Below, in pieces: positions 12,526 through 47,568 of a stretch of DNA of 64,000 nt (position 1 is its first letter; the number at the start of each line of letters is the position of its first letter). The position numbers and the translations under genes are program-made. The stretch is taken from positions 1 to 64,000 of IMG/VR virus record IMGVR_UViG_3300042904_000405. One strand, written 5' to 3'. Origin of the DNA: a virus. The notes under the pieces are model-generated. The model did no database searches, was not told the origin of the DNA, and worked only from the letters and a program-made list of their open reading frames with translations.

Positions 12526-14658
12526 ATGGCCTTCCCAGTAGTCCAGGCCGTCACCGAGTCCGTCGTCGCCACTGCTGCGACCAGTCACCCCGTGACGCTG
12601 CCAGCCAGCATCGCGAGTAGCGACCTCGTTCTCATCCTCATGGACATCGGGTCGACGGCGGCGACCCTGAACGCACTCACCGACTGGTCCGAGGTGCTCG
12701 ACGAGAACGTCGCGAACGGCCTCAAGATCCTCCTCTACACCGGCGCCGGCGTCCCGTCGAACCCGACGTTCACATCCTCTGCGGCCACCCGCTCGGTGTC
12801 GCTCGCCTACCGGATCTCTGGTGCGGACAAGTCGATCACTCCACAGATCGGCACGACCGCCACAGGGACTTCCCTCACGCCGGATCCGCCGTCGGTGACG
12901 CCGACCGGTGGCATCACGAAGGACTACCTGTTCATCGCGTTCTTCGGGCAGGCGCTCGAAGAGGCGGACGATGACACGTGGGCGAACACACCGCCCACGA
13001 ACTACACGCCGTCACCGCCACGCCAGAAGACGGCGGGCACTGCGGGCACGAACCTCGGCGGGCTGATCGCGTCCGCCGAGCGGCAGCTGGCGACTGGCTC
13101 CGCTGAGAACCCTGGCACATTCGCCGTCGATGTGTCAGCGGCGTGGCGCGCCCAGACGATCATCGTCCACCCACAGGCGACCACGTCTGGCGCCTACGAG
13201 TTCGCCTTGGCGAACCCGGTCACCACGCCACCCAACGATGACGACCACACGGTCAGGGTGCGGGCATGGGCGTCCGCTGGCTCCGGTCTCCTCAAGGTTC
13301 GGCTCCTGCAGGGCGCGACCGAGATCGATGCTTGGACCGAGACGCTGACCGGGTCCGCGGCCAACTACAACCACGCGGTCGCTCCAGCGGCAGCGGCCAA
13401 CATCTCGAACTACAACGACCTTCGGCTCGAGCTGGTTGCCACAACGTTCACCAGCGCCACCGTTCGGGTGTCGCAGGTCTCCTTCTCAGTACCCGAGGGA
13501 GCGGCTGGCGGCGACCTCGTCGTCCAGGACGCGCTGCACGGCCACGCCGCTGACAATGCCGCGCTCACCCAGGTCCACACCCTCGCCGTCCAGGACGCGA
13601 CGCACGGGCATACGGCCGACAACGTTGTCCTCGTCCAGAACTCTTCGCTGGTCGTCGCCGACGCTCTGCATGGGCACACGGCCGACAACGTGGTCCTCAC
13701 TCAAGGTCATGTGCTCACCGTCGCCGAAGCGAGGAACACGCACACCGCCGACAACGTCGCCCTGACGCAGGTCCACTCACTGGTCGTTGCGGACGCCACG
13801 CACGGGCACACCGCCGACAACGTCGCTCTGACGCAGACCCACGTCCTGGCCGTCCAGGATGCGCTTCACGGTCACGCCGCCGACAACGTCGTGCTCGCCG
13901 CCGGCGGGGCCCTCGTCGTTCAGGAAGCGACGCACGGCCACACAGCGGACAACGTTGCGCTGACCCAGGTCCACGTCCTGTCGGTCCAGGATGCGGCTCA
14001 CGGCCACACCGCTGACAACGCGGCCATCACCAAGAACTCCTCACTCGTCGTCCAGGACGCGCTGCACGGCCACGCGGCCGACAACGTCGTACTCACCCAA
14101 GGCCACGTCCTCACCGTCTCCGAGACGCTTCACAGCCACACCGCCGACAGCGTCACTCTCACCCAGGTCCACGTTCTCTCCGTCGCCGACGCGCTCCACG
14201 GGCACGCCGCGGACAACGTCACCGTCACCACGGTCAATGCGCTCGTCGTGCAGGAGACGCTCCACGCCCACTCGGCTGACACCGTCACCGTCACGCAGCT
14301 GCACGTCCTCGTCGTCGACGACGCTCTCCACGGCCACACCGCCGACACGGTGCCGCGCGGCGACCTTGAGGCGATCATCACCTGCGCCATCGATGGCCCA
14401 GCGACGAAGGCGATCCTGCTCTCCGGCCCCGCCATCATGGTGGTCGCGCTGAAGGGCCCAGCCGTCGCACGTCGGATCACCGGGCCGGCGATTGAGGTAC
14501 TCTCCCTGAATGGCCCAGCAATCGAAGCTGTGTCCGTGCGGGGCCCAGCGGTGAGCCGGGTCGTGGACGGTCCCGACATCGAGGCTGCGCCCTCCGTCGA
14601 TGCGGGACCCGACACGTCCCGCGAGCTGATCGGGCCCGCGATGTGCCCAGGAGGATGA
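12526..14658 (+). CDS. Long fibre protein with 13 HGH repeats and GPA repeats
   Basis: Length 710 aa. Residues ~1-215 are a beta-rich module similar in plan to the preceding gene. Residues ~220-325 are the second half of a phage fibre domain (YEFALANPVTTPP onward). Residues ~331-609 hold 13 copies of a 22-residue repeat of form LxVxDALHGHxADNVxLTQxH. The end (~620-710) has about nine ~10-residue units starting GPA. The HxH motifs recall the iron-binding HxH sites in the T4 long fibre tip, so a metal-stabilised trimeric shaft is a reasonable inference. It probably makes a host-contact fibre. Confidence 0.65.
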   Translation: MAFPVVQAVTESVVATAATSHPVTLPASIASSDLVLILMDIGSTAATLNALTDWSEVLDENVANGLKILLYTGAGVPSNPTFTSSAATRSVSLAYRISGADKSITPQIGTTATGTSLTPDPPSVTPTGGITKDYLFIAFFGQALEEADDDTWANTPPTNYTPSPPRQKTAGTAGTNLGGLIASAERQLATGSAENPGTFAVDVSAAWRAQTIIVHPQATTSGAYEFALANPVTTPPNDDDHTVRVRAWASAGSGLLKVRLLQGATEIDAWTETLTGSAANYNHAVAPAAAANISNYNDLRLELVATTFTSATVRVSQVSFSVPEGAAGGDLVVQDALHGHAADNAALTQVHTLAVQDATHGHTADNVVLVQNSSLVVADALHGHTADNVVLTQGHVLTVAEARNTHTADNVALTQVHSLVVADATHGHTADNVALTQTHVLAVQDALHGHAADNVVLAAGGALVVQEATHGHTADNVALTQVHVLSVQDAAHGHTADNAAITKNSSLVVQDALHGHAADNVVLTQGHVLTVSETLHSHTADSVTLTQVHVLSVADALHGHAADNVTVTTVNALVVQETLHAHSADTVTVTQLHVLVVDDALHGHTADTVPRGDLEAIITCAIDGPATKAILLSGPAIMVVALKGPAVARRITGPAIEVLSLNGPAIEAVSVRGPAVSRVVDGPDIEAAPSVDAGPDTSRELIGPAMCPGG
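13516..14352 (+). repeat. 13 tandem 66-bp coding repeats (22 aa, HGH motif)
   Basis: The period is exactly 66 bp from 13516 to the start of the thirteenth copy at 14308. Core residues are DALHGHTADNV. The copies differ at many wobble positions, so the repeat is old or selected at protein level. Confidence 0.9.
14391..14656 (+). repeat. GPA-type ~30-bp degenerate coding repeats
   Basis: About nine units of 9-12 residues each beginning GPA or GPD (GPATKAILLS, GPAIMVVALK, GPAVARRIT and so on). They form the C-terminal part of the long fibre protein and suggest a repetitive beta structure. Confidence 0.7.
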
Positions 14659-15908: not shown

Positions 15909-16673
15909 CTAGAGCTTCCAGTACCGCTGGTGCAGCCGCGCCGTCAGGTGCGGGGTCTGCGGGAAGCTCGCCGTCGGCAGGCCCGAGCGGATCGCCCTGA
16001 ACCACCGGATCATCGTGTCGCCGGGCGAGTAGGCATCGATGGCTACCCGGGTGAAGGCGCCGTTGGCCCGATCCCCGAACCACGCGTCGTAGCTGTACTC
16101 GCGGTCCGAGCACCCGGAGATGAGCGTCGCCGGCACCCTCGACGCCTTCGGCTGCACCCAGCCGCGCGACATCGTGACGAGCGGGTCGCTGCCGATCAGC
16201 TCAATCGGCGACATGAACCGGGCGCGGATCGGTGGCAGGGATCCACCGAACCCCAGCCCAGCGACCCGAGACACCGAGCCCGAGTGGCAGCTGTCCGACA
16301 GGAACGTGCGCCGCACGCCAGTGGCGGCCGAGTCGAACGCTGTCGCCAGCTCGTCGTCGGTGATGTACCGACGGGTGTAGTCGGACGGGCACAGCACCTC
16401 GTCGAACCCGTCGATCTCGTCGCCGTTCCGATCCGGGACGAACGACCCGTGCCCCGAGTAGGTGAACACGAACCGGTCACCCCAGCGCATCCCGTCCAGG
16501 CCGTCGCGCAGGGCGGTGAGGATCGCATCCCCGCTCGGCTCGATTGAGATCGTCGGCTCGTAGCCCAGCTCGGCGAACATGGCCGCCCAGTCGTAGGCGT
16601 CATTGACGCAGCCGGCCAGCTCGGCCGACGTCCCCGGATAGTTCAGCCCGACGTGCAGTGAGCGCTTCAGCAT
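15909..16673 (-). CDS. Caspase-like cysteine peptidase (family C14, metacaspase type)
   Basis: Length 254 aa, with GAGGAGG upstream. It begins with the typical HVGLNYPGTSAELAGCVNDA strand-loop. The catalytic dyad is present: His75 in TYSGHG and Cys129 in LSDSCHSG. Acidic residues that bind the P1 Arg/Lys in metacaspases are plausible in DRNGDEIDGFDEVL and near SGCSDREYSYD (~200). The whole fold is there with no extra domains. Family knowledge predicts Arg/Lys-specific proteolysis in the cytoplasm. The start is 1 nt after the stop of a membrane protein gene, so the two are co-expressed. A phage-encoded active C14 enzyme is unusual. Confidence 0.88.
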   Translation of the reverse strand: MLKRSLHVGLNYPGTSAELAGCVNDAYDWAAMFAELGYEPTISIEPSGDAILTALRDGLDGMRWGDRFVFTYSGHGSFVPDRNGDEIDGFDEVLCPSDYTRRYITDDELATAFDSAATGVRRTFLSDSCHSGSVSRVAGLGFGGSLPPIRARFMSPIELIGSDPLVTMSRGWVQPKASRVPATLISGCSDREYSYDAWFGDRANGAFTRVAIDAYSPGDTMIRWFRAIRSGLPTASFPQTPHLTARLHQRYWKL

Positions 16674-17523: not shown

Positions 17524-17736
17524 TCATACGCGCTGGTGAAGCAGCTCGTTCAACAGGTGATGCCCGTTGAACCCGTCGAGTAGACGGAGCACCTGCTCGT
17601 CCGTCAGGTTCTTCCAGCTGGAGACGTCGCGCCGCAGGAAGAACTCAGCGAAGTCCATCCGCTCCTCCCGCGTCATCTTCAGCCCCTGGGCTTGAGCCAT
17701 CAGCGCGATGAACTGCGGGGAACGAGTGTTCGCCAT
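17524..17736 (-). CDS. Small helical protein, divergent to WhiB
   Basis: Length 70 aa from ATG 17736, which has GAGAGGAG upstream; an in-frame start at 17760 would lose that site. Helical throughout: MTREERMDFAEFFLRRDV, then DEQVLRLLDGFNGHHLL. This arrangement is seen in small actinophage and actinobacterial proteins of unknown role. It shares a 46-bp divergent control region with the whiB-like gene. Confidence 0.6.
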   Translation of the reverse strand: MANTRSPQFIALMAQAQGLKMTREERMDFAEFFLRRDVSSWKNLTDEQVLRLLDGFNGHHLLNELLHQRV

Positions 17737-17782: not shown

Positions 17783-18193
17783 ATGGGTCGCCATCAGTCC
17801 TTCGCCAGCGGATCCGAGATCCCCAAGTCGATGCGCGCCGCCCGGGGGGCTGACGTCTCGTGGAAGGAGGAGGCCCGCTGCCGGTCCAACCACCGGCCCG
17901 AGGGGCTTCCGCACTTCGCCTGGACCGTCGACCCCAAGGACAAGGGCGCCCTTCTGCTCGGCCGCGAAGCCAAGGCGTGGATCGAGATGGCGCTGCTCAT
18001 CTGCCAGGCGTGTCCCGCCCAGTACGGCTGCGCCCGATTCGCCCTCAAGGTCGGCGAGGAGTGGGGCACCTGGGCGATGCACACCAACGATCTCAAGCAG
18101 CTCCATCGCCACCCCCGCAAGGATCTGATCATCGACGCTGCCGAAGACGCTGGCATCCCGGTGCAGGTCGCCGTCCGCCGGGCGCTGGGTTGA
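17783..18193 (+). CDS. WhiB-family Fe-S transcription factor
   Basis: Length 136 aa. Four cysteines in WhiB spacing: Cys33 (WKEEARC), then Cys74, Cys77 and Cys83 in ICQACPAQYGC, followed by GEEWGTWA at 91-98, equivalent to the family G(V/I)WGG turn. A basic C-terminal tail (HRHPRKDL, VAVRRALG) suits DNA or sigma-factor contact. Phage WhiB proteins are known to interfere with host WhiB function and superinfection. TACACT (17765-17770) is 12 nt before the ATG and may be its -10 element. Confidence 0.85.
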   Translation: MGRHQSFASGSEIPKSMRAARGADVSWKEEARCRSNHRPEGLPHFAWTVDPKDKGALLLGREAKAWIEMALLICQACPAQYGCARFALKVGEEWGTWAMHTNDLKQLHRHPRKDLIIDAAEDAGIPVQVAVRRALG

Positions 18194-18909: not shown

Positions 18910-19341
18910 ATGCCGAGTGCGGTCGCCGACATCGAAGAGGTGGAGACCTTCTTCGACCTGGTGCGCAGCGGCGCCGCCGAGATGGTCGCCGCCTACTCGG
19001 TGGGCTGGACCCCGCTGAAGCTGCGCAAGCTGAAGAAGGACACCGACTTCCTCGACCTGCTCGCCGACGCGCAGGAGCACTTCCTCGACCAGGTGGAGAC
19101 CACCGTCGGACAGCGAGCCCTGGCTGGCAACCGCTGGGCCGTGGAGATGGTGCTCTACAACCGCCGCCCCGACCGCTGGCGCCCGCCGGCACACAAGATC
19201 GCCATCGAGCAGCACACCACCGTCAAGCACGAGGTGGTGCAGGCCACCGTCGAAGCAGCCAAGGAGCTGCTCCTGACCAGCGGCACCGTGGCGGCGCTGC
19301 AGCAGCGGCAGGCGATCGAAGCGCATGTCCGCGACGACTGA
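18910..19341 (+). CDS. terS: Terminase small subunit (probable)
   Basis: Length 143 aa, overlapping the large subunit by 17 bp. Helical protein with a helix-turn-helix-like N-terminal part (GAAEMVAAYSVGWTPLKLRKLKKD) that would recognise the packaging site, a central helix (ALAGNRWAVEMVLYNRRPDRW), and a C-terminal oligomerisation or TerL-binding part. Position directly before the terminase large subunit is the main support. Leaderless start. Confidence 0.7.
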   Translation: MPSAVADIEEVETFFDLVRSGAAEMVAAYSVGWTPLKLRKLKKDTDFLDLLADAQEHFLDQVETTVGQRALAGNRWAVEMVLYNRRPDRWRPPAHKIAIEQHTTVKHEVVQATVEAAKELLLTSGTVAALQQRQAIEAHVRDD

Positions 19342-20848
19342 GTCGCTCGAGCACCTCGAGCGCATCGCCCTTCCCTCCAGCATCGGCCGGTCGCTAGCCC
19401 CTCGGCTGTGGGGAGCGGGCACCGAGTACCGCGTCGACCCGTGGCTTGCCATGGCCGAGCAGGCTGTCGTGCCAGCGTTCCTGGACAAGACCCAGGAGTC
19501 GTTCATCATGCTGAACGTCCCGCCCCAGGTCGGCAAGTCGACCTTCGGCGGCGAGCTGCTCCCGTTCTGGGTGCTCGGCATGTTCCCCGAGACGCGCATC
19601 ATCGTCATCACCTACTCGGACGACTTCAGCAAGGGCCGCGGCGCCACTGTCCGCAACATGATGGAAGCCTTCGGGCCTGAGCTGTTCGGCGTCGACGTCG
19701 ACCCCGACTTTCGCTCCGCCGGCGACTGGCGCATCAAGGGGCACCGCGGCGGGATGCTCTCGGTCGGCATCGGCTCGCAGATCACTGGCCGTTCCGGCGA
19801 CCTGATCATCATCGACGACGTCATCAAGAACGCCGAGGAGGCGGCGAGCCCGACCGCCAAGCGCAAGCACCTCGCAGAGTACGACGGCACGATCCGCACC
19901 CGCCTCCAGCCGGGCGGCATGATCCTCATCACCGCCACGCGCTGGGCCGAGGACGACCTGTCCGGCGAACTGCAGACCCGTCAGAAGGACCCCACGTACT
20001 TCGGTGATCGCTGGGAGGTGTACTCCTTCCCGGCCATCGCCGAGCCCGAGGACGAGGACGACGAGGAGTGGGTCGACCCCCTCGGCCGCGCCGAAGACGC
20101 CGAGCTGCAGTGCCGCTTCCCCGAGGGCCACTTCCACCGCGTCCGCCGCTCGATCGACGCCTTCACCTTCAGCTGCCTCTTTCAGCAGCGCCCATCCGTC
20201 CGCAAGGGGGGCATGTTCCCCAAGGCGAACTGGCGCTACTACGACCCCGACGACCGCCCGTACATGGATCAGTTCATGCGGGTGTGGGACCTCGCCGCCA
20301 CCGAGAACGGCGGCGACTACACCGTCGGGTCGAAGGTGGGCAAGACGCGCGACGGCGAGTGGTACGTGCTGGACGTCGTCCGCAAACGGCTCAACGCCAA
20401 CGACGTGCGCGAGCTGGTCTGGGCGACCGCGGTCGGCGACGGCTTCCTCACCAAGATCCGCTTGGAGGAATCACGGGACGGCGCCGGCAAGAGCGTCGTT
20501 GAGTTCTACAAGGCGGATCCGCGCTTCGCTGGGTACGACATCAAGGGCACACGCGCCGAAGGCCAGAAGGAGAGCCGGGCCACGCCCTACTCCGCACTCC
20601 AGAACGGCGGCCACTTCCACCTGCCCGACGGCGCTCCGTGGGTGAAGGACTTCGTCGACGAGCATCGACAGATGATGGGCGACGGGCGCAAGCCGCGGCA
20701 CGACGACCAGATCGACACGGTCGCCTACGCCGTGCTCGAGATGGCCGACTCCGGCCCTGTCACCATCCTCGACCCGCACGACTACACCGACCAGTTCACC
20801 GAGAAGGCCATGAACGACATCTGGCGCCGCATGGGCGTCATGCGGTGA
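19325..20848 (+). CDS. terL: Terminase large subunit
   Basis: Length 507 aa. The ATPase domain has Walker A PPQVGKS at 66-72 and Walker B LIIIDD at ~160-165, followed by ATRWAEDDL (motif III region). The nuclease domain begins RVWDLAAT (Asp322), with DYTVGSKVGK, and ends HDDQIDTVAYAV (~465-478), the usual last acidic cluster. It packages DNA into the prohead and cuts the concatemer. Full length and intact. The 3-prime end overlaps the minus-strand operon end by 11 bp. Confidence 0.95.
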   Translation: MSATTESLEHLERIALPSSIGRSLAPRLWGAGTEYRVDPWLAMAEQAVVPAFLDKTQESFIMLNVPPQVGKSTFGGELLPFWVLGMFPETRIIVITYSDDFSKGRGATVRNMMEAFGPELFGVDVDPDFRSAGDWRIKGHRGGMLSVGIGSQITGRSGDLIIIDDVIKNAEEAASPTAKRKHLAEYDGTIRTRLQPGGMILITATRWAEDDLSGELQTRQKDPTYFGDRWEVYSFPAIAEPEDEDDEEWVDPLGRAEDAELQCRFPEGHFHRVRRSIDAFTFSCLFQQRPSVRKGGMFPKANWRYYDPDDRPYMDQFMRVWDLAATENGGDYTVGSKVGKTRDGEWYVLDVVRKRLNANDVRELVWATAVGDGFLTKIRLEESRDGAGKSVVEFYKADPRFAGYDIKGTRAEGQKESRATPYSALQNGGHFHLPDGAPWVKDFVDEHRQMMGDGRKPRHDDQIDTVAYAVLEMADSGPVTILDPHDYTDQFTEKAMNDIWRRMGVMR

Positions 20849-21341
20849 CGAAGGCCTCGTGCTCGGCTGGCTGGAGGAGCCGGTCAGGATGATCGAACGT
20901 CACCACGCCAGACCAGACAGTGACCCGCACGCCCCCGACGGTCCGCCAGTGTGGCACCATCAGGTATGGCGCCCACTGCGTCGGGTAGGGAGAGATGGCC
21001 CCGTCAGGATCGGTGGGCCACGCCAGGAAGACGGCGTCGTCCTCGCCGGGTAGGGCAGAGTTTGCCCTGAAGGCAGGGTGAGCCTCGAGCCGGGCGAGCG
21101 CCCTGCTGATGCGGATGACCGCTCGATGCAGCGAGCCCGAGGCCCGGCCCTTCCGCTGTCCGTAGGCGTTGAAGGCCTGCGCGCTCAGGTCATCCAGCAG
21201 CAGACGCCAACCGATCGGCGGCATCGGCACGTCGATCATCACCCGGCCAACAGGCTCTCCCCTGTCCAGCCACGCCTTCGCCGCCGAGGTGGCGTGCGCA
21301 TAGCATGCCTTGAGCTGGGAGTCAGTGAGGCGAACGATCAT
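20838..21341 (-). CDS. Hypothetical protein, end of minus operon
   Basis: Length 167 aa from the ATG overlapping the previous stop (ATGA). An N-terminal helix (MIVRLTDSQLKACYAHATSA) is followed by a mixed domain with MPPIGWRLLLDDLSAQAFNAYG and, near the end, TVWSGVVTFDHPDRLL. Related-looking proteins occur in actinophage early regions. No function assigned. It is the last gene of the ~17-kb minus-strand operon. Confidence 0.65.
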   Translation of the reverse strand: MIVRLTDSQLKACYAHATSAAKAWLDRGEPVGRVMIDVPMPPIGWRLLLDDLSAQAFNAYGQRKGRASGSLHRAVIRISRALARLEAHPAFRANSALPGEDDAVFLAWPTDPDGAISPYPTQWAPYLMVPHWRTVGGVRVTVWSGVVTFDHPDRLLQPAEHEAFVTA

Positions 21342-21493
21342 GGGGAATCGGACGGCGGTTCGGTAGCGCAGCTCGGGTTGGGACACTGGCGCTGTTCGCC
21401 GTACGGCCAGTCCATCGTCTGATCGACCACGACCCAGCCGACACCTCCACACTCGGGGCAGTTGAACGGCGGTTCGGTAGGGCTACTCGTCAT
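21338..21493 (-). CDS. EPPFN-tag zinc-ribbon protein
   Basis: Length 51 aa: MTSSPTEPPFN, then CPECGG and CPNPSC (a four-cysteine zinc ribbon), then TEPPSDSP at the C terminus. Both tags are translations of the GAACCGCCGTYC element (sites at 21464-21475 and 21350-21361). It overlaps the next gene by 4 bp. Confidence 0.6.
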   Translation of the reverse strand: MTSSPTEPPFNCPECGGVGWVVVDQTMDWPYGEQRQCPNPSCATEPPSDSP

Positions 21494-21690
21494 CGCTGGC
21501 ACCTGCCTGTTTCGTTGCATCGGCGCTCGCCGCAACGTTCGTCGAGGAAGTCCGCCAGGGGGCAGCCGTGTTCGTGGCGGTCGCCGGGTCGCACATCGGC
21601 GGTGCATGTGGCGCATCGGTAGTGGCCGGTGAGTTTCCGCCACCAGCCCCACGCGCTATCGGACGGCGGTTCGATGCCCGGCTCAGGCAT
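21490..21690 (-). CDS. EPPSD-tag cysteine-rich protein
   Basis: Length 66 aa. It starts MPEPGIEPPSDSAWGWWRKL, then RCATC and HEHGC, with further cysteines near the end, suggesting a zinc-binding fold. The tag is encoded by the element at 21661-21672, 18 bp inside the gene. Neighbours overlap at both ends. Confidence 0.6.
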   Translation of the reverse strand: MPEPGIEPPSDSAWGWWRKLTGHYRCATCTADVRPGDRHEHGCPLADFLDERCGERRCNETGRCQR

Positions 21691-21973
21691 CGCTCACCAT
21701 CCATTGCAGGTTCCAGACACGGTCTGTCGATGGGTCGTGATGGTCGCGAGAGCCGTCGTGGAAGTGGCGAGCGGGTAGATCGCAGGTGTAGTGCACCGCA
21801 CCTGACGTGATCCGCGCCGGGCAGACCGGCCACGTATTGCACGGACATCCCGGAGCGGGATCGAGCAGCGGGCCACCGCCGCATTCCGGGCAGGTGGACT
21901 CGGACTGGACGTGATGCGCCGCCATGTCCGGACATTGCCCGACCGGCACCCCGTGCGAGCAATCGATAGTCAT
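21683..21973 (-). CDS. Cysteine-rich zinc-binding protein
   Basis: Length 96 aa from ATG 21973. It contains DCSHG, STCPECGGG, CPCNTWPVCPAR and HYTCDLPARHFHDG, enough Cys/His for two zinc sites. The HYTCDLPARHFH segment resembles a motif seen in other actinophage small proteins. No tag. It overlaps both neighbours. Confidence 0.6.
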   Translation of the reverse strand: MTIDCSHGVPVGQCPDMAAHHVQSESTCPECGGGPLLDPAPGCPCNTWPVCPARITSGAVHYTCDLPARHFHDGSRDHHDPSTDRVWNLQWMVSDA

Positions 21974-22212
21974 TCCCCGCCCTCTTCCTCGTCGGTCCCC
22001 GATCCGTTGCAGGCGGCGCAGACGCTGACAGTGAGACCCATGCGATCCCAGCAGCGGCCGAGCCCGAGGCAGTCCTGACACGGCACGGTGGCGGAGTTGA
22101 ACGGCGGTTCGGTAGCCCGTTCCCGCATCGCCTTGCGCTTGCACTCACACCCGCCCTGGAACAGGCAGTCAGGGTGGCGCTCGCACCTATTGAACGGCGG
22201 TTCGGTAGCCAT
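21970..22212 (-). CDS. Double EPPFN-tag DnaJ-type zinc finger protein
   Basis: Length 80 aa. It begins MATEPPFNRCERHPDC and carries a second copy, ATEPPFN, at 33-39 (elements at 22192-22203 and 22099-22110). The second unit has CQDCLGLG and CAACNGSG, the CxxCxGxG motif of DnaJ zinc fingers. It looks like two tagged mini-proteins joined; MRERATEPPFN could also be a second start. Confidence 0.6.
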   Translation of the reverse strand: MATEPPFNRCERHPDCLFQGGCECKRKAMRERATEPPFNSATVPCQDCLGLGRCWDRMGLTVSVCAACNGSGTDEEEGGE

Positions 22213-22346
22213 CACAGGAGCGCCAGTCCGACCATTGTCCACCACAGTGCGAGCATGATGAAGCCCGCCAGGCAGACGGCTACGAGTAATCCGAGCGCGG
22301 CTTCGTCGTCGCTATCGGACGGCGGTTCGGCAGAGGGGTCAGGCAT
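22212..22346 (-). CDS. EPPSD-tag small membrane protein
   Basis: Length 44 aa. It begins MPDPSAEPPSDSDDEAA, followed by a single membrane segment (LGLLVAVCLAGFIMLALWW) to the end. It shows that the shared N-terminal tag is joined to unrelated bodies, here membrane rather than zinc-binding. Start and stop overlap the neighbours (TGATG). Confidence 0.6.
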   Translation of the reverse strand: MPDPSAEPPSDSDDEAALGLLVAVCLAGFIMLALWWTMVGLALL

Positions 22347-22633
22347 CACAGACCATCCAGCCTCATGCGAGGGTCGAGCCGGCGCGGGGGCTGATTCCGC
22401 TTGAGGTAGCCGTGGAGTCGCTCGTCGAATGCCTCGTCCTCCTCAACCATGTTGAAGATGGCATCGCAGAGCTGCCATGCCTCCTCTCGGTTCTGCTCGG
22501 CGAGCTGCTCAAGGCTGAGCCCGCGCTCGCCCAGAGCCTGGAGAACGAGGGCGATCTCTGGGTCGCTGGCCCGTTCGTTGACCCAAGCGATCATCTCGCC
22601 GAGCGCGTTGCGCTCCTCGTCGATCTCGCTCAC
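22346..22633 (-). CDS. Helical acidic protein
   Basis: Length 95 aa, GTG start overlapping the stop of the LexA-like gene (GTGA). Strongly helical and acidic (IDEERNALGEMIAWVNERA, FNMVEEDEAFDERLHGYL). It is the immediate downstream partner of the LexA-domain protein; no DNA-binding motif of its own. Confidence 0.6.
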   Translation of the reverse strand: MSEIDEERNALGEMIAWVNERASDPEIALVLQALGERGLSLEQLAEQNREEAWQLCDAIFNMVEEDEAFDERLHGYLKRNQPPRRLDPRMRLDGL

Positions 22634-22878
22634 ATCGTCTCCGTCCGCGGCGTGATCACAGCCTCTCCGACACGGATCGTCCTCGACTTCTCCCGGGCGC
22701 CGGTCAGCAGACCCAGGCGGATCATCTGCTGGAGCATCGCTTGGATCGAGCCGGGGCTCTTCATGCCGATGCCCTCGGCGATCTCGCGCACCGACGGCGA
22801 GTAGCCGTGCGCGTCGATGAACGACTGCACGAACCGTTGGATCTCCGCGGCCTGCCGCGGGACGTAGTTGTCCTTCAT
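22630..22878 (-). CDS. LexA DNA-binding-domain-only protein
   Basis: Length 82 aa. It matches the LexA N-terminal winged-helix domain along almost its whole length: a helix AAEIQRFVQSFIDAHGYSP (~10-28), SVREIAEGIGMK (29-40), then SPGSIQAMLQQMIRLGLL (41-58), corresponding to the LexA SVREI ... recognition helix, and a wing with SRTIRV. The Ala-Gly cleavage site and the Ser/Lys protease domain of LexA are absent, so it cannot self-cleave. Known Gram-positive LexA binds GAACNNNNGTTC, and many such sites occur in this phage, so these are its likely targets (inference). Confidence 0.82.
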   Translation of the reverse strand: MKDNYVPRQAAEIQRFVQSFIDAHGYSPSVREIAEGIGMKSPGSIQAMLQQMIRLGLLTGAREKSRTIRVGEAVITPRTETM

Positions 22879-26938: not shown

Positions 26939-27132
26939 CAGTCCACCATCCTCGTGAGGGCCCGATTGAGGGCGTTGCGCAAGTCCTTGACCTTGCGCTT
27001 CGAGAGCTTCCCAGCGCCCTCGTCGGGCAGAGAAGACAGGAACAGCACGTCGAGATGGTCAGGGTCGAGGCCGACCCAGACCTGCCCTTCGGTGATCTCG
27101 TCATCCCAGATGGTCTCGTTGACTACCCACAT
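26938..27132 (-). CDS. Small protein
   Basis: Length 64 aa: MWVVNETIWDDEITEGQVWV, a LDVLFLSSLP strand and a basic helix (KLSKRKVKDLRNALNRALTR). Coupled to the upstream regulator gene by overlap. Confidence 0.5.
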   Translation of the reverse strand: MWVVNETIWDDEITEGQVWVGLDPDHLDVLFLSSLPDEGAGKLSKRKVKDLRNALNRALTRMVD

Positions 27133-27608
27133 CACCAGCTCCACCTCTCCACATGTCGGGCCGCCTCGATGGCGGCGTCGGTTGGCTTCCACACCGTGGC
27201 CTGCTGGCCGTAGCGCGTCGCCCGGGTCTTGCCCGAGTCTTCGATCCAGCCCTGGTCCCGCAGGTCGGTGACCCGCGGCGACACTGACTGGTGCGATCGG
27301 CTGAGCCGCTGCTCGATGGCGTCCGTCGTGAGCCCGATCGATCCCTGCTGGTAGGCGAGGAGGATCTGAGCGAACACCCGACCCACCACCCGGTGGGCGC
27401 TCTTGCTCATGTACTGCGCCGCCGCCTCCGAGGTGGCGAGCGGCAGTGAGATCGTGCGGGTTGCGGTGGCTGGCTCCAGGTCGAGCGCCTTCAGCCTCGT
27501 CACGGCAGCTTCGAGCTTGGCGACTCGACTCCAGAAGCCGAACACCGTCGGCTCTAGGAGTACGGCTGCTTCGATGACGGCGCGTTCCGCTGTCCGTCTC
27601 TTCGTCAT
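27132..27608 (-). CDS. Winged-helix DNA-binding protein
   Basis: Length 158 aa. The C-terminal half reads as a winged helix: a helix (HRVVGRVFAQILLAYQQG), LTTDAIEQRL, recognition helix SHQSVSPRVTDLRDQGWI (~103-120), then a wing (GKTRATRYGQQATVW). It resembles phage-encoded helix-turn-helix regulators. It is preceded by its own promoter signal and a small palindrome (GAGCG-GTA-CGCTC), so it probably starts a transcript and may regulate itself. Confidence 0.7.
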   Translation of the reverse strand: MTKRRTAERAVIEAAVLLEPTVFGFWSRVAKLEAAVTRLKALDLEPATATRTISLPLATSEAAAQYMSKSAHRVVGRVFAQILLAYQQGSIGLTTDAIEQRLSRSHQSVSPRVTDLRDQGWIEDSGKTRATRYGQQATVWKPTDAAIEAARHVERWSW

Positions 27609-27656: not shown

Positions 27657-28250
27657 CTAGGGCACTTCGATCACGAGGAGCACCGAGTGGTAGCCCCAGA
27701 TGTTGAGCTGCTTCTTGCCCGAAGGCTGCGACCGCATGGCGTGGATGTACAGCTTTCCAGCCACCCGGCCACCGGCCTTGCGCACCGCCTCCGTCACGAA
27801 GCCCGACTGATCGCGGAACTTCGACGCCACGTTTGAGTCCTGGCACTTCACCAGGACCAGCCGGCGCGAGATCTCCATCGCCTCGAGCGCTCCGCCGATC
27901 AACGTCTCGTCGACCGAGTCAGCGCTGCTGTAGTCGCCCAAGCCGTACTGCGCGTCCGACTCCAGCCGGCTCGTCCCTCGGTAGGCATAGGGCGGGTCCC
28001 AGCACACGACGCTGTACGCACCCGGCGCGAACGCCCGATCGAACACGTTGTGGTGGTAGTCCGCCGCCACTGCCTCGTCGTCGTCGTTCGTGACGAGCAC
28101 GTCAGGGCGCCAGCGCGTCCAGAACCCTGCGTTCGGCCCGACCGTCAAGTCAAGGATGGAGTCCTCCTTGCGGAGGATCCCCAGCTCGGCGAGGTCGGCG
28201 ATGGCGGCACCGTTCGTCACGCGGTGCGTGTCGTTGGCCAGGATGGTCAT
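27657..28250 (-). CDS. DNA N6-adenine/N4-cytosine methyltransferase
   Basis: Length 197 aa from ATG 28250. Motif I-like SILDLTVGPNAGFW (31-44) binds AdoMet; the catalytic motif IV is CWDPPYAY, with DPPY at 85-88; later VLVKCQDSN. Single compact domain with no target recognition extension, so sequence specificity cannot be predicted. It may protect phage DNA from restriction. No cognate nuclease adjacent. Confidence 0.8.
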   Translation of the reverse strand: MTILANDTHRVTNGAAIADLAELGILRKEDSILDLTVGPNAGFWTRWRPDVLVTNDDDEAVAADYHHNVFDRAFAPGAYSVVCWDPPYAYRGTSRLESDAQYGLGDYSSADSVDETLIGGALEAMEISRRLVLVKCQDSNVASKFRDQSGFVTEAVRKAGGRVAGKLYIHAMRSQPSGKKQLNIWGYHSVLLVIEVP

Positions 28251-37474: not shown

Positions 37475-37978
37475 TCAGGGCATGGTGAGGGCCTCCTCGA
37501 GGAGCGCGCGGTCGCCGGGGCCGAACCAGCCCGGACGATCGGTCCAGAAGCCGCATTCCGACAGGACGCCGGGCTGCGAGCAGTCGGAGTGGACGGACCC
37601 GTTCCAGGTCGGCCACTCCATGACGATGTGGGCGATCTCGTGCTGCCACACGAACACCTCACGGGAGTGGGGGTCGGTGGGGTCGTAGAAGATGATCTTC
37701 GACCCCACGATCCCGGACGCCGCCACATGGTCGGTGCAGTCCCAGGAGGAGCACACCGGGGTCAGGGCGACGAAGGTGATGTCGGGGGCCGGCCCATTGC
37801 GAAGCAGCTCGTATCCGGCCATCTCGTTCCACGGCGCGAACACCGCGGCGTCGTCGACCCCCGGGATGTCCCCCACCACGTAGGTCGTACGCGGTGGGGG
37901 GCCCGGGGGGGATGGGGGGATCTGCTGGAGGGCGCACCCGGCCAGCGGCAGGGCGGCGAGAGCGGCGAGGCGCTTCAC
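37475..37978 (-). CDS. Secreted lipoprotein with zincin motif HEIAH
   Basis: Length 167 aa, GTG start overlapping the previous stop. Signal MKRLAALAALPLAGC (lipobox LAGC, Cys15), Pro-rich linker, then a domain with VWQHEIAHIVMEW (HEIAH 113-117): two zinc-ligand His plus the catalytic Glu; His130 is a possible third ligand. Several cysteines (CSSWDC, SDCSQPG, SECGFW) suggest disulphides. Probably an extracytoplasmic metallopeptidase expressed early. Confidence 0.65.
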   Translation of the reverse strand: MKRLAALAALPLAGCALQQIPPSPPGPPPRTTYVVGDIPGVDDAAVFAPWNEMAGYELLRNGPAPDITFVALTPVCSSWDCTDHVAASGIVGSKIIFYDPTDPHSREVFVWQHEIAHIVMEWPTWNGSVHSDCSQPGVLSECGFWTDRPGWFGPGDRALLEEALTMP

Positions 37979-38109
37979 GCGGGCCGCTCCAGGAGGAGGG
38001 GGCCCGCGGCGAGCCAGTAGACGTCGGGGTCGTCCCACCACAGCTCCGGGTCGTCGGTGACGTGGTAGGTCCCGGCGAACCGGGGGAGCAGGTCATCCCG
38101 CTCTTGCAT
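37975..38109 (-). CDS. Small acidic protein, first gene of minus operon
   Basis: Length 44 aa with GGAGG upstream: MQERDDLLPRFAGTYHVTDD, WWDDPDVYWLAAGPLLLERPA. Coupled by GTGA to the lipoprotein. It is the promoter-proximal gene of the ~17-kb operon. Confidence 0.5.
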   Translation of the reverse strand: MQERDDLLPRFAGTYHVTDDPELWWDDPDVYWLAAGPLLLERPA

Positions 38110-38176
38110 CAGGAGCCTCCGTTCCTGTCCCGAGACAGCCCCCGGAGAGCACGCCCTAGAGCGTCCCTCCGTTCAC

Positions 38177-38220
38177 TGCCTCTCACAATGTCATCGACCG
38201 TAGACCGGTCGATTCGTCAC
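38177..38220 (+). repeat. 44-bp imperfect direct repeat, left copy
   Basis: Matches the copy at 38612-38655 in 33 of 44 positions by hand alignment. Conserved blocks are TGCCTCTCAC, ATGT, AGACCGGTC and GTCAC. It contains the palindrome GACCGGTC. Confidence 0.65.
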
Positions 38221-38371
38221 ACCCCCCTGGGGTGGGGGGAGGGGGCCGGGCCGGCGGGTAGGGCTGTTTCTAGCCCCCGGCGGGCCGGGCGTATGTCGAT
38301 TTCCTGCCCCCCCTAGGGGGGAGGGGGGTGGGGGGTGGCCCCCCCTGGGAGCCCCCCGCACACTCGCCGGC

Positions 38372-38533
38372 GAACCCCTGTTCGGGAACGTCTGTTCGAC
38401 GAACCCCTGTTCGGGTACACGCGTTCGGGTACGGGTGTTCGACGATCGAGTGTTCGGTCGCCGGGCAAACCCATGTTCGTACGATCGAGTGTTCGATCGC
38501 CGGGGGATCAAGCGTTCGTACGATCGTTCGTTC
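38372..38533. repeat. Array of ten GAACNNNNGTTC-like boxes
   Basis: Box starts: 38372, 38386, 38401, 38415, 38429, 38444, 38467, 38483, 38506, 38522. The first three are exact GAACNNNNGTTC; the others keep the right half (T/C)GTTCG and vary the left half (GTAC, GATC, AAAC). Spacing is 14-16 bp, with two gaps of 23 bp. This is the Gram-positive SOS-box pattern arranged like iterons. Confidence 0.75.
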
Positions 38534-38542
38534 GATTAGCAA

Positions 38543-38609
38543 GCGATGCCCCATCGCTCCATCGCTCCGTGCGATCGCTCGCACGCTCCGATGCTCCGAT
38601 GCCCCATCG
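38543..38609. repeat. Two short palindromes
   Basis: GCGATGCCCCATCGC at 38543-38557 and CGATGCCCCATCG at 38597-38609. Between them are further CGCTCC/GATCGC direct repeats. Confidence 0.55.
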
Positions 38610-38611
38610 CT

Positions 38612-38655
38612 TGCCTCTCACTATGTGGACGCGGGCAGACCGGTCTATCTGTCAC
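38612..38655 (+). repeat. 44-bp imperfect direct repeat, right copy
   Basis: Second copy of the element at 38177-38220, same length and orientation. It lies ~70 bp before the start of the plus gene at 38728. Confidence 0.65.
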
Positions 38656-38727
38656 GGGGACCGTACGGTTGTGCTAGCTTCCCCGTTGGGCGCACCACGC
38701 GTCCCACTCACAACGGAGGGTACGAAC

Positions 38728-39900
38728 ATGACGAACGAACATTGGCAAGCCATCGATGACGACACATGGCAGGAAGCGCACGGGGAAGCTGTCGACCAGC
38801 TCGCACCCCTGGCCATGTGGGCGCACTTGGCAGGGATGGTCCACGGGGATGTGTCCGCGGAGCGTGCCTATCACGCGGGGATGAAGACAGGGCAGGAAGC
38901 GCCACGCGGCATGGCACCCGCGCCAGACCCCTACGAAGGGGTCCGGCACGACGTCCATAGCAAGCGTTCCAACAGTGGGCGCACCGCTAAGCGCGTCACC
39001 CGCGCGGGACGGACCTACGTCATCGGCGCGGACCCTTTCCGCGAGCACGGGGACCCCGTCCGTATCGACGGAATCACACTCACGGCGATCGCCGACGCAT
39101 GGCACGCGATCCACGGGGGAGAGCATGAGTGCACGTGCGATGACCTCACGGAAGATCGACCGATCTACCGGAAGGGACGCATGGTCATCCGCAACGGGGA
39201 ACCCGTGACGCGCACGGTCGCTCTGCGCGCTTGCCACTGCGACCCCTTCCCCCGTCTCGCGGGGACCGACTTGCGAGCGTTCGCGGAGGTCACCCCGGAG
39301 ATTCGTGATACGTCCTACGTGACACCTAGTGCGACGCATCGCACATCGCTCGCGGGTGGTCTCGTGAACGATCGGGAGACGGTCGCACGGACCATCCGCG
39401 GACGTCGCGGCGATGGCACTCCCTACGTCATGACGGAACACGGGGAGTACGGGGATGCAATCACCGATCGGAGCGTGCCGACGATCGACACTGCCTCTCA
39501 CGTGACACGGACTCGCCTCTCCATGCGCCCGCGGAAGAGTGACCCTACGGAGTCCACGGTCGACGGAGTAACAGCACTGCTCGCACCCGCGGCAGACCGC
39601 GAGCACGTATGGCACGGGCACCGTTTGGTCCCCCGTGCGGGCGCGGTCAAGTCGGGCAGTGACACCCGCAAGCGTCGCAACGCTGCCACCCGCGCCGCGG
39701 CCCCATGGTCCCCGTTCGTCCCTGCCATCGCCGCGGCCATCGGAGGGACCGACCCCGTAGTGGTGAACGGAGTAACAGTGCGACTCACGATCCCCGGAGA
39801 CACGGGCAGATTCCGCGCCCACTTGACCTACTGCGACGGATCAACCGCGACCATCCAAGCCCGCACGGCCGACCGCGTCGCACGGGCAGTCGACGCATGA
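38728..39900 (+). CDS. Hypothetical protein of unusual codon use
   Basis: Length 390 aa, ATG with GGAGGG upstream. Hydrophilic; contains HECTCDDLTEDRPIYRKG and LRACHCDPFPRL (possible metal-binding CxC pairs), several VTRT/TVARTIRG strands, and an Arg/Ala-rich late section (DTRKRRNAATRAAAPW). Wobble positions use G and A (GCG, GGG, GGA, GCA, ACG) far more than the C-rich neighbours, so it was probably acquired separately. It sits next to the box array and could act on it (replication or partition), but no known domain is seen. Confidence 0.6.
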   Translation: MTNEHWQAIDDDTWQEAHGEAVDQLAPLAMWAHLAGMVHGDVSAERAYHAGMKTGQEAPRGMAPAPDPYEGVRHDVHSKRSNSGRTAKRVTRAGRTYVIGADPFREHGDPVRIDGITLTAIADAWHAIHGGEHECTCDDLTEDRPIYRKGRMVIRNGEPVTRTVALRACHCDPFPRLAGTDLRAFAEVTPEIRDTSYVTPSATHRTSLAGGLVNDRETVARTIRGRRGDGTPYVMTEHGEYGDAITDRSVPTIDTASHVTRTRLSMRPRKSDPTESTVDGVTALLAPAADREHVWHGHRLVPRAGAVKSGSDTRKRRNAATRAAAPWSPFVPAIAAAIGGTDPVVVNGVTVRLTIPGDTGRFRAHLTYCDGSTATIQARTADRVARAVDA

Positions 39901-44590: not shown

Positions 44591-44760
44591 GACAACAGAT
44601 CCTTCAGCTTCGTGATCTCGTCGTAGGCCTTCTTGACCTTGCCGCCGTGACGTTCGACGAGCTGGTTCCAGTCGACGAAGACGGACAGCGGCGAGGCCGA
44701 GATCTCGCCGATCTCGGTCAGCCCTTCGAACTGGGTGTTGATGTCGTCTTCGTTGCTCAC
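44587..44760 (-). CDS. Small protein
   Basis: Length 57 aa, GTG start. MSNEDDINTQFEGLTEIGEI, then a basic helix (ERHGGKVKKAYDEITKLKDL). Coupled at both ends. Confidence 0.5.
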   Translation of the reverse strand: MSNEDDINTQFEGLTEIGEISASPLSVFVDWNQLVERHGGKVKKAYDEITKLKDLLS

Positions 44761-45371
44761 TTCGTCTCCGGGAGTCCGCCGCTAGGAGCGGCTGTCGTTG
44801 GGGTCGTGTCCGCGGGCCACGCCACCGTTGAACGGGGAGGCTCCACGGAGCAGTTGACGCAGCCTCGGGGCACGAGGGGGGCGGTCGTCGAAGAGACGTC
44901 GGTACCACGAGGGACGGTTGTCCCAGGCGAAGTCGATGAAGTCGAGGAGGGCGTCGGCTGCGTCGTCGAGGTCTCGGGCACGGTCACCTGGGTCACCGGC
45001 GTGCAGTCCTGACACACGGTCGTCGATGTCGTGGAGTCTGGCACGGTCGTCGTGGTCCCGTCAGGCGGGTCGCACTCGCCGAGCGTGTCCTGCTCGTGGC
45101 CGGCCTGGGTGGTGCCGTTCTCGTTGAAGTGACCCCCGTTGCCGTAGACGGCCTGCGGCGGCAGGTGCAGCGTGACGTAGTTCGCCGGGTCGTCGGCCCG
45201 GCCAGCGACGTGACAGATCGTGATCTTGTCGTTGTTCCCAGCGGCAGGCACGGCCCCACCCGTCGGAGCGAAGAGCCAGATGGCCGCGGCACCCCCGACG
45301 GCGAGGACGCCTGCGATGAGTGGGGCGGCGTGGGCCCGCTTGAGGGGCCTCTGGTTCTCTTGGATGTCCAC
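44757..45371 (-). CDS. Secreted protein with ITICH domain and Thr-rich tail
   Basis: Length 204 aa from GTG 45371. After an N-terminal membrane or signal segment (~15-38, APLIAGVLAVGGAAAIWLF) comes a ~60-residue domain: KITICHVAG, YVTLHLPPQAVYG, GGHFNENGTTQAGHEQD. I recognise this as a domain common in secreted actinobacterial proteins. A Thr/Ser/Pro-rich tail with CQDC and CVNC pairs follows and ends LPETK. LPETK looks like a sortase motif but has no hydrophobic anchor after it. Probably surface-exposed in the host; promoter shared with a SOS-box-like operator. Confidence 0.65.
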   Translation of the reverse strand: MDIQENQRPLKRAHAAPLIAGVLAVGGAAAIWLFAPTGGAVPAAGNNDKITICHVAGRADDPANYVTLHLPPQAVYGNGGHFNENGTTQAGHEQDTLGECDPPDGTTTTVPDSTTSTTVCQDCTPVTQVTVPETSTTQPTPSSTSSTSPGTTVPRGTDVSSTTAPLVPRGCVNCSVEPPRSTVAWPADTTPTTAAPSGGLPETK

Positions 45372-45408: not shown

Positions 45409-45420
45409 GAACGAGCGTTC
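45409..45420. promoter_or_regulatory. SOS-box-type operator GAACGAGCGTTC
   Basis: Exact GAACNNNNGTTC with extended arms GCGAAC/GTTCGC, lying between two divergent leaderless promoters (-10 elements at 45378-45383 minus and 45453-45458 plus). This is the position expected of a real repressor site. Confidence 0.65.
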
Positions 45421-45465: not shown

Positions 45466-45627
45466 ATGAGCGAGGCCAGCGAGAACTCCCGCCCGGGCAA
45501 GGAGGGCAAGATCCAGTCCTTCTACGTGCGCCACGAGATCCTGGCCAAGCTCGGCGCCCTAGCCAAGGAGCGCGGCGTCAGCCGCAACCGCATGCTGACT
45601 GTGCTCGTCGAGGAAGCCGATCAGTAG
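45466..45627 (+). CDS. Ribbon-helix-helix DNA-binding protein
   Basis: Length 53 aa. Strand KIQSFYVRHEILAKLGALAK followed by GVSRNRMLTVLVEE: the RHH (CopG-like) fold, complete. Leaderless, next to the SOS-box-like operator; may be the regulator of the divergent secreted protein gene. Converges on the Rpf-like gene with a 7-bp overlap. Confidence 0.65.
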   Translation: MSEASENSRPGKEGKIQSFYVRHEILAKLGALAKERGVSRNRMLTVLVEEADQ

Positions 45628-46555: not shown

Positions 46556-46733
46556 CGGTCACCACCTTCCATGTTCCGTCCGGGCTGACCCGCACGATGG
46601 TGTAGCTCTGAGCGAACAGCGATGTGCGCGCCGTCTCGGGGTCGTTCGCTCCCCACCACAAGCGGCCGTCGCGATCAACCACGTAGAACATGTCGGCGAC
46701 CTGTTTCGGCGGTTCGGTAGCGGGGTCAGGCAT
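46548..46733 (-). CDS. EPP-tag small protein
   Basis: Length 61 aa. MPDPATEPPKQVADMFYVVD carries the tag in degraded form (TTTCGGCGGTTC at 46704-46715), then DGRLWWGANDPETARTSL. Paralogue of the following gene. Confidence 0.55.
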   Translation of the reverse strand: MPDPATEPPKQVADMFYVVDRDGRLWWGANDPETARTSLFAQSYTIVRVSPDGTWKVVTGA

Positions 46734-47001
46734 TGGCGATCGCCGCCCTCAGAGCGTGGACGAGTGACGAACCCTCGCCCGTGCTCACTACGCCGCGCTT
46801 GTCCCCAATCACCACCGCGGTTCCGTGAGTCGTGATGGCGTGCGGTATCCGCACCGTCGCTCCGCTGCCGAGCACGACGTCGAGTAGATCGTCAGTTGTG
46901 AGCAGGTCGGCACAGTCTGGACAGAGCGCGAACCTCAGAGGGATGAGGTCCGAGCAGCGGCAGGGGCTATCGGACGGCGGTTCGTTAGCTGGTGCTGGCA
47001 T
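46726..47001 (-). CDS. EPPSD-tag protein with zinc knuckle
   Basis: Length 91 aa. MPAPANEPPSDSPCRCSDLI, CPDCADLL, then TVRIPHAITTHGTAVVIGDK and a helix. Tag encoded at 46972-46983. The CxC/CxxC set suggests zinc. Confidence 0.6.
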   Translation of the reverse strand: MPAPANEPPSDSPCRCSDLIPLRFALCPDCADLLTTDDLLDVVLGSGATVRIPHAITTHGTAVVIGDKRGVVSTGEGSSLVHALRAAIANA

Positions 47002-47212
47002 AGCCGTCCATCCATCGCTCGGCGATTCGGTAGCAAGGGTCCAGACAGAAGTGCCAGACCTGTACGTCATCGGCGCACCATCCCATGTCGGCCAATGGTC
47101 GGCGCGTGCCGCAGATGGCGCAGATGAACGGCGGTTCGATGGCAGGCGCAGGCGGCGGACTGCTCGGCCACGGCGGGCACTTGCTCACGTCGGTCCGCGG
47201 GTTGCTAGCCAT
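46985..47212 (-). CDS. EPPF-tag zinc-ribbon protein
   Basis: Length 75 aa from ATG 47212. Pro-rich leader PPWPSSPPPAPAIEPPFICA with the tag at ~26-30 (element at 47125-47136), then CAICGTRRPLADMGWC and FCLDPCYRIAERW. Overlaps the next gene by 17 bp. Confidence 0.55.
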   Translation of the reverse strand: MASNPRTDVSKCPPWPSSPPPAPAIEPPFICAICGTRRPLADMGWCADDVQVWHFCLDPCYRIAERWMDGYASTS

Positions 47213-47369
47213 CGGCCGATTCTTCGCACGGGCGACAGATGCCGTCAATCAGTTGCTCCCGCGACTCGCAACGCTCACAGACACCGCTGCGGCCCTCGCG
47301 GAAGTAGCGACGAGTGTTTGGTGGGAGGTGGGCGAGGGGGTCGCTATTGAACGGCGGTTCGTTAGTCAC
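47205..47369 (-). CDS. EPPFN-tag zinc-ribbon protein
   Basis: Length 54 aa, GTG start immediately followed by the tag: MTNEPPFNSDPLAHLPPNTR, then VCERCESREQLIDGICRPCE (two CxxC pairs). Element at 47349-47360. Confidence 0.6.
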   Translation of the reverse strand: MTNEPPFNSDPLAHLPPNTRRYFREGRSGVCERCESREQLIDGICRPCEESADG

Positions 47370-47568
47370 GGTCGGCCTCCAGCCATCGCCCGATGGCTGG
47401 GAGTCCGACTCGGACGACGGGCTCATCGGTGTCGAGCACGGCTCGCGCCTCGTCGCTGATGGACGGCGGTTCAGACGCCTGATCGCACGGCCACGGTTCG
47501 CCGCACGTCGCACATCGGACGATGGTCGCCGGGCGATGGCGATTGAACGGCGGTTCATCAGCGGGCAC
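47362..47568 (-). CDS. Double EPP-tag protein
   Basis: Length 68 aa, GTG start. MPADEPPFNRHRPATIVRCATCGEPWPC then a second tag ASEPPSISDEARAVLD. Elements at 47545-47556 and 47461-47472. As in the 21970 gene, two tagged units appear joined; overlaps both neighbours. Confidence 0.55.
   Translation of the reverse strand: MPADEPPFNRHRPATIVRCATCGEPWPCDQASEPPSISDEARAVLDTDEPVVRVGLPAIGRWLEADRD

Follow-up and report, generated by a model that had tools for sequence, protein, structure and literature searches.

The 64,000 bases analysed here, referred to as the window, are the initial part of a 72,403-base IMG/VR virus record and hold both a short LexA-like protein and a dense cluster of LexA-type boxes. 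The question raised by this locus is which protein reads these boxes. The initial annotation had described a LexA DNA-binding domain (DBD) encoded alone, with many matching operator sites across the phage genome.

A LexA winged helix encoded without the protease half

The protein in question lies on the minus strand:

22630..22878, minus strand: stand-alone LexA-type winged-helix DNA-binding protein of 82 aa, ATG start, assigned from Pfam and an AlphaFold model

The Pfam family LexA_DNA_bind matches the 82-aa protein with E=3.4e-12, scoring 46.4 bits where the cut-off is 23.7; its Pfam rows include no peptidase family and the open reading frame stops at 82 aa, in agreement with the proposal that the DNA-binding domain is encoded alone. 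Compared with a full-length LexA, the protein has the N-terminal winged helix and lacks the C-terminal S24 protease domain, which provides the cleavage site, the Ser/Lys dyad and dimerisation. It is a real LexA winged helix minus the protease half. LexA dimerises through the C-terminal domain, and the 82-aa protein is without that domain. The gene sits within a leftward operon and overlaps each of its neighbours by 4 bases.

An AlphaFold model of the protein, built from a six-sequence input (mean pLDDT 74.5), has helices at residues 7-24, 30-36 and 42-54, the third of which (42-54) is the recognition helix. The structure that the model matched best was 3jso, a complex of E. coli LexA with DNA (Z 10.7, rmsd 3.9, 73 aligned), in a tie with DtxR (Z 10.1), and further winged helices were not far below. 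Because DtxR and other winged helices score nearly as high, the fold alone is insufficient to name the protein. Matches to the domain were also found in PHROGs 3502, 24920 and 362 (E 2.7e-11, 6.3e-9 and 5e-6), which are phage families of 131, 125 and 106 positions with a listed function of unknown or 'transcriptional repressor'.

Phage LexA homologues that consist of the DNA-binding domain only are already known (GIL01 gp6, Wildcat gp13), and GIL01 is also a known case of a phage with tandem LexA boxes. According to PMC6182141, the host LexA reads the tandem LexA boxes of GIL01 (Betatectivirus), and the DBD-only LexA homologue gp6, whose recognition helix includes lysine K38, binds GaCACAC-GTGTGaC and activates late genes. 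GIL01 resembles the window phage in having a DBD-only LexA homologue without the protease half together with tandem LexA boxes (gp6 being compared by its published description). It differs in being a Bacillus tectivirus, and the gp6 site is described there as a non-SOS palindrome at which gp6 acts as a late-promoter activator. The gp6 palindrome (GNCACANNTGTGNC) at up to one mismatch occurs in the window 2 times against 3.5 expected, which is no excess.

The Mycobacterium phage Cosmo (KP027195) encodes a 77-aa protein, gp13, that is 32% identical to the 82-aa protein over 59 residues (E=6e-14). Cosmo gp13 belongs to a small-gene operon running away from the terminase, with a methyltransferase two genes on, in a layout similar to that of the window; when the window genes were compared with that stretch of Cosmo, the DBD alone matched well and the others barely. 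No box array was found in Cosmo (1 site against 2 control matches). PMC7474061 reports Wildcat gp13 as a LexA-like protein of 77 aa with a toxicity index of 5 that inhibits growth, causing mild defects in liquid culture and hardly reducing viability, and Msmeg_1285 co-precipitates with it. From their number, size and taxonomy, we infer that Wildcat gp13 and Cosmo gp13 are orthologues.

A coding repeat and a box array in the window

The scan of GAACN4GTTC against shuffled sequence that had been proposed as a check returned a clear excess, with 11 exact sites in the window against 0.76 expected and none of the 100 shuffles reaching 11. At up to one mismatch there are 46 sites (21.7 expected), and the form CGAACN4GNNCG occurs 20 times (7.3 expected). 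The 11 exact sites divide into three in the array at 38372-38533, six that read GAACCGCCGTTC, and two that stand alone (17720 and 45409). When the array and the coding repeat are set aside, the two exact sites left are at chance level (P of two or more = 0.18). The sites other than the array are as follows:

21464..21475, minus strand: copy of the coding repeat GAACCGCCG, not an operator; other exact copies at 22099, 22192, 47126, 47349 and 47545
21350, 21661, 22317, 46707, 46972 and 47461, minus strand: variant copies of GAACCGCCG
17720..17731, no strand: lone exact box within the first codons of the called gene 17524-17736 (minus strand); not significant
45409..45420, no strand: lone exact box CGAACGAGCGTTCG between the divergent called genes 44757-45371 (minus strand) and 45466-45627 (plus strand); at chance frequency

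The six GAACCGCCGTTC sites near small-gene starts, which had been read as operators, turned out to be codons of the GAACCGCCG repeat. The core GAACCGCC occurs 15 times in the record; 12 of these are minus-strand copies held in two small-gene clusters (21350-22328 and 46707-47556), and the other three are single, on the plus strand and elsewhere (one GAACCGCCG at 31892 and two GAACCGCC). Half of the 12 minus-strand copies have no GTTC ending (five end in GTCC and one in GAAA) and are not palindromic; an operator role was rejected for the six GAACCGCCGTTC copies that belong to this set. In nine of the 12, a possible start (ATG, GTG or TTG) precedes the copy by 3-6 codons, and the repeat uses GAA in all 12, GAA making up 16% of the Glu codons in the gene calls. 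Because the repeat is conserved at the nucleotide level, we take it to be a start-associated element of that level, separate from the boxes. The dispersed 14-mers in six relatives included no comparable repeat, and a longer pattern of the coding repeat matched 0 stretches in IMG/VR.

The 'many operator sites' are thus two unrelated things, the coding repeat and a real array: the local array is significant, but the genome-wide set is not. As for the box placed in a divergent promoter at 45409-45420, it is exact and does lie between divergent genes, but its frequency is within chance.

The array lies within a divergent control region:

38110..38728, no strand: divergent intergenic control region with G/C tracts, the array and repeats
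38177..38220, no strand: 44-nt repeat, copy 1, with the GACCGGTC palindrome
38372..38533, no strand: the 11-box LexA-type array, 162 bp long, with 3 exact GAACN4GTTC boxes and 8 one-mismatch boxes
38539..38614, no strand: imperfect inverted repeat of 36 nt (75% complementary), immediately adjoining the array
38612..38655, no strand: 44-nt repeat, copy 2 (75% identical), with GACCGGTC

The region is flanked by a leftward operon (first called gene 37975-38109) and by a rightward ORF from 38728, and the array is bracketed by the two copies of the 44-nt repeat. The rightward ORF is taken from the ORF list and has no Pfam match; it was missed by the simple gene caller used here, which also missed small genes in 21300-22350 and 46750-47550. 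A promoter scan of the control region recognised no promoter, and no DnaA-like box was found in the array region of the window.

The array had been presented as tandem exact sites; it is real, but just 3 of the 11 boxes are exact and the remaining 8 carry one mismatch. The first six boxes are spaced at 14-15 bp (5 of the 10 intervals), followed by intervals of 23, 16, 23, 12 and 4 bp, the last two boxes overlapping. When the record was shuffled 40 times, no 200-bp stretch had more than 3 boxes, against 11 in the 162 bp of the array. When the array is read on the minus strand, CGAAC is present in 11 of 11 boxes and GAAC-N4-GNNC in 10 of 11, and all 8 one-mismatch boxes deviate in the same half (two-sided P 0.008). 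We dropped this half-site asymmetry as an argument against LexA, since the published Streptomyces consensus likewise has a strong and a weak half: in PMC9380542, the S. venezuelae LexA consensus is tCGAAC-N4-GNNCGa, with one strong half, and the boxes of the window array fit it. The recA, lexA and dnaE2 entries of that paper list one to three boxes each, as against 11 in the window array. Judged by its sequence, the array is a true LexA-type (SOS) box array.

Distribution of the domain and the boxes in related phages and in IMG/VR

The clade of relatives was defined with the terminase:

19325..20848, plus strand: terminase large subunit, the basis of the clade

The records G033 and G008 were found by the tandem-box search and afterwards recognised as relatives, with a terminase identity to the window of 52% and 48%, respectively, and a capsid identity of 50% in G033. 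The terminase alignment added G114 and G115 (51%), G117 (47%) and G116 (39%) among the matches listed; because G033 was absent from those matches, the clade membership is a lower bound and further members may exist. A LexA DBD over the cut-off is encoded in G033, G008, G114, G115 and G117, and G116 has a sub-threshold match only (18.7 bits).

At the divergent junction, G033 and G008 each carry an array of four exact boxes 15 bp apart. The array of G115 at this junction has seven exact and two one-mismatch boxes 26-40 bp apart and carries the full TCGAAC-N4-GTTCGA (6 exact 16-mers). In G117 the same junction (L223:1328-1415) has five TCGAC-N-GTCGA dyads with repeat periods of 16, 23 and 39, which are not the SOS box. 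A search of G116 for boxes and tandem repeats, with the junction itself not located, found no SOS-box array, and G114 stops short of the junction, these records often being fragments. Thus, three of the five relatives examined have an SOS-box array, one has an array of another palindrome, and the most distant one has no SOS-box array. The order of leftward operon, G/C tract, array and rightward operon is the same in the window, G008, G033, G115 and G117 (with gene starts of the relatives placed by eye), and the SOS-box array was seen in this common place in four clade members.

Since G033 and G008 were selected by their arrays, the independent tests are G115, G117 and G116 only, and the presence of two perfect four-box arrays in DBD-bearing records was noticed after the fact. 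We rejected the co-occurrence within the clade as proof of coupling, because ancestry accounts for it. The recognition helix is different in every relative (window SPGSIQAML, G033 SKSSTQPIM, G115 SPASTNANL, G008 SPNTGHALV, G117 SPNTGNSYV) over a GAAC box core that is unchanged in the window, G033, G115 and G008, and the two helices most alike, those of G008 and G117, face different arrays. Two DnaA-box-like sites lie close to the array of G008. When other repeated dyads were considered as DBD targets in 7 records, no further candidate common to the records was found.

Of the 80 terminase relatives among the matches listed, 35 (the clade and the longer records) were tested for the DBD and the boxes. 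None of the 30 more distant ones has a DBD over the cut-off, sub-threshold matches being present in two (G124 and G147), and each has at most three exact sites.

In IMG/VR the pair pattern GAACN4GTTCG-N1-2-GAACN4GTTCG matched 111 stretches in 108 records. A LexA DBD (E 0.001 or better) was found in four of these records; G033 and G008 belong to the clade, and the other two, G006 and G025, are alike. Because the other 104 of the 108 tandem-box records have no detectable LexA DBD, something else reads those boxes. A triple pattern gave 16 viral stretches, two of them in DBD records. The search for relatives of the DBD itself gave 174 IMG/VR stretches, of which the best 80 were kept, 70 of them DBD-only in size. 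Exact boxes were counted in 43 records outside the clade, picked from the 80 for length, 4 of which carry longer proteins. None of the 43 has three exact boxes within 200 bp, their 41 exact sites compare with 55 for a reversed control pattern, and the closest exact pair is 23 bp apart (G150). Outside the clade, the two features hardly ever coincide. The idea of a genome-wide site set read by the 82-aa protein is accordingly not supported, six of the sites being the coding repeat and the boxes being uncoupled from the DBD outside the clade. Single-protein IMG/VR searches with the DBD and with the terminase gave nothing informative.

The consensus of 473 exact sites in the tandem-box loci is CGAACRNNYGTTCG. 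Of the 114 neighbour spacings within 120 bp that the pattern did not select, 33 fall in the peak at 15-17 bp, and pairs spaced at 19-20 bp are fewer (45 stretches) than those at 14-15 bp (111 stretches). Across the genomes of 84,980 bacterial and archaeal species, only three stretches, each in a MAG contig, matched a stringent triple pattern, and arrays this dense are therefore atypical of cellular LexA promoters; the viral (16) and cellular (3) counts are not strictly comparable because the viral pattern was looser. The commonest cluster of neighbouring ORFs at the tandem boxes is WhiB-like (named by reading the sequence), at 11 of the 97 distinct loci; together with the WhiB protein of the window, this is a pointer to actinobacterial hosts.

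Two further features of these loci were noted. DnaA-box-like TTATCCACA lies within 300 bp of the tandem boxes in 17 of the 111 loci, some of which are near-copies, where 0.08 such boxes are expected in each such stretch from the loci's own average; clusters of TTATCCACA beside tandem SOS boxes are found in L088:4300-4385 and in L015, L019, L063, L068, L117 and others. In two different records, a LexA DBD gene is directly followed by a gene for a single-strand-binding-protein-like protein (L120:1408-1719 and L118:1480-1728; named by sequence reading).

No description of dense phage SOS-box arrays, or of LexA titration by them, was found among the open papers listed. Nor did these papers describe either of two features seen here: the retention of a dense SOS-box array where the operons meet in several diverged actinophages, and the occurrence of tandem boxes at 97 distinct IMG/VR loci.

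Candidate readers of the array

Four other genes of the window were considered, two of them as candidate readers:

17831..18193, plus strand: WhiB-family protein (Pfam E 6.7e-7)
27132..27545, minus strand: MarR-like winged-helix protein, below the Pfam cut-off; candidate rival reader
27657..28250, minus strand: DNA methyltransferase-like protein (weak PHROG match, E 1.8e-4)
45466..45627, plus strand: ribbon-helix-helix-like protein of 53 aa (weak, RHH_5 E=0.013, below cut-off); candidate rival reader

The WhiB-family protein, together with relatives of the portal/protease and capsid proteins in Arthrobacter, Gordonia, Mycobacterium and Microbacterium phages (all below 30% identity in the rows listed), suggests that the host, in our reading a high-GC bacterium, is actinobacterial. 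This assignment is uncertain because the best-ranked terminase matches are mixed (Acetobacter, Microcystis and Arthrobacter phages). A phage megablast gave nothing informative. Relatives of the MarR-like protein were found by tblastn in G008, G033, G115 and G117. In G033, G114 and G117, and in G008 from reading the ORF, a relative of the methyltransferase-like gene is the immediate neighbour of the LexA DBD gene; in the window the two genes are 4.8 kb apart.

We favour, with a rough probability of one half, a reading in two layers, in which the host LexA would bind the array and the phage DBD a separate target. As the array's reader, the host's own LexA ranks first, above the phage DBD, at the same even odds. 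We infer that the array would serve as an actinobacterial LexA (SOS) box cluster in the main divergent control region, that the host LexA would occupy it and keep the early promoters down, and that SOS cleavage of the host LexA would free them. The 82-aa protein would be expressed from the leftward operon as a transcription regulator and most likely acts at its own site or sites, in the manner of GIL01 gp6; by that analogy, action elsewhere than on the array is the more likely. Because it has no self-cleaving domain, it should persist when the host LexA is lost. The two-layer reading is favoured because the boxes match the SOS consensus in detail, because nearly all tandem-box records are without the DBD (104 of 108) and no DBD record outside the clade has an array (0 of 43), and because GIL01 provides a precedent. 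Against the host LexA stand the joint presence of DBD and array within the clade, the lack of a recognised promoter, and a density of boxes atypical of cells. The G117 array, which is not the SOS box, also weakens it, unless the LexA of that host differs. Neither a tyrosine or serine integrase nor a ParA-type ATPase was found in any of the 7 records searched (some of them fragments), and a lysogenic state for SOS to release therefore lacks support; the phages may be strictly lytic.

It is somewhat unlikely, in our estimate, that the 82-aa protein itself binds the array as a RecA-independent LexA mimic, competing with or replacing the host LexA. A LexA fold and a LexA-type array do meet within one phage, and they do so in the window, G008, G033 and G115, G116 having neither a DBD over the cut-off nor an SOS-box array, and G117 combines the DBD with an array of altered motif, as a phage-encoded reader predicts. 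However, common ancestry alone explains this clade pattern, and the uncoupling outside the clade (no three exact boxes in 200 bp in the 43 other DBD records; 104 of 108 tandem-box records without the DBD) speaks against such a mimic, as do recognition helices that vary over a constant GAAC core, with similar helices facing different arrays in G008 and G117. The dimerising C-terminal domain is also missing. The gp6 site of GIL01, as described in PMC6182141, is likewise not an SOS box. An extended form, in which integrase-less actinophages would be run by a LexA array at the early-operon junction, with host LexA and an uncleavable phage DBD competing for it and motif and phage reader drifting together as in G117, we regard as unlikely.

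Another phage protein could read the array, either the ribbon-helix-helix protein (45466-45627), the winged-helix protein (27132-27545), or a replication initiator for which the boxes would be origin iterons. The winged helix is present in G008, G033, G115 and G117, all of which bear arrays, the ribbon-helix-helix gene has a lone box upstream, a large inverted repeat stands beside the array, and the altered motif of G117 fits a phage-encoded reader; DnaA-box-like sites near the G008 array and TTATCCACA-type boxes in 17 of 111 loci would suit an initiator. This is nevertheless quite improbable, since the boxes agree with the SOS sequence down to its asymmetry, DnaA-like boxes are absent from the window region, chance suffices to explain the lone box at 45409, and the commonest neighbour cluster accounts for just 11 of 97 distinct loci. 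A decoy function, in which the array would titrate the host LexA as the phage DNA multiplies and so turn on SOS genes to the benefit of the phage, has a very small chance of being right: the boxes are many and tightly packed with no recognised promoter in the window, triple arrays number 16 stretches in viral contigs against 3 in genome contigs (the latter by a stricter pattern), and no integrase was found, but the location between two divergent operons in the array-bearing clade members suggests promoter control.

If the host LexA reads the arrays, many uncultured actinophages would couple their main control region to the DNA-damage response of the host, and a compact DNA signature of this coupling would be recognisable and searchable. 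If the phage LexA fragment also reads them, it would be a natural LexA minus the self-cleaving half, useful to block SOS, and the retention of such fragments by many phages would be explained; the competition with co-drift, if true, would amount to a RecA-proof takeover of the SOS switch. Either way, what the stand-alone phage LexA domains bind is directly testable on a defined 162-bp DNA.

Two other features of the window were noted: the phage encodes a caspase-domain protein at 15909-16673 (Peptidase_C14, E 5.6e-23), and 66-bp tandem repeats (12.6 copies, 13515-14347) lie inside the called gene 12526-14658, perhaps that of a tail or fibre protein.
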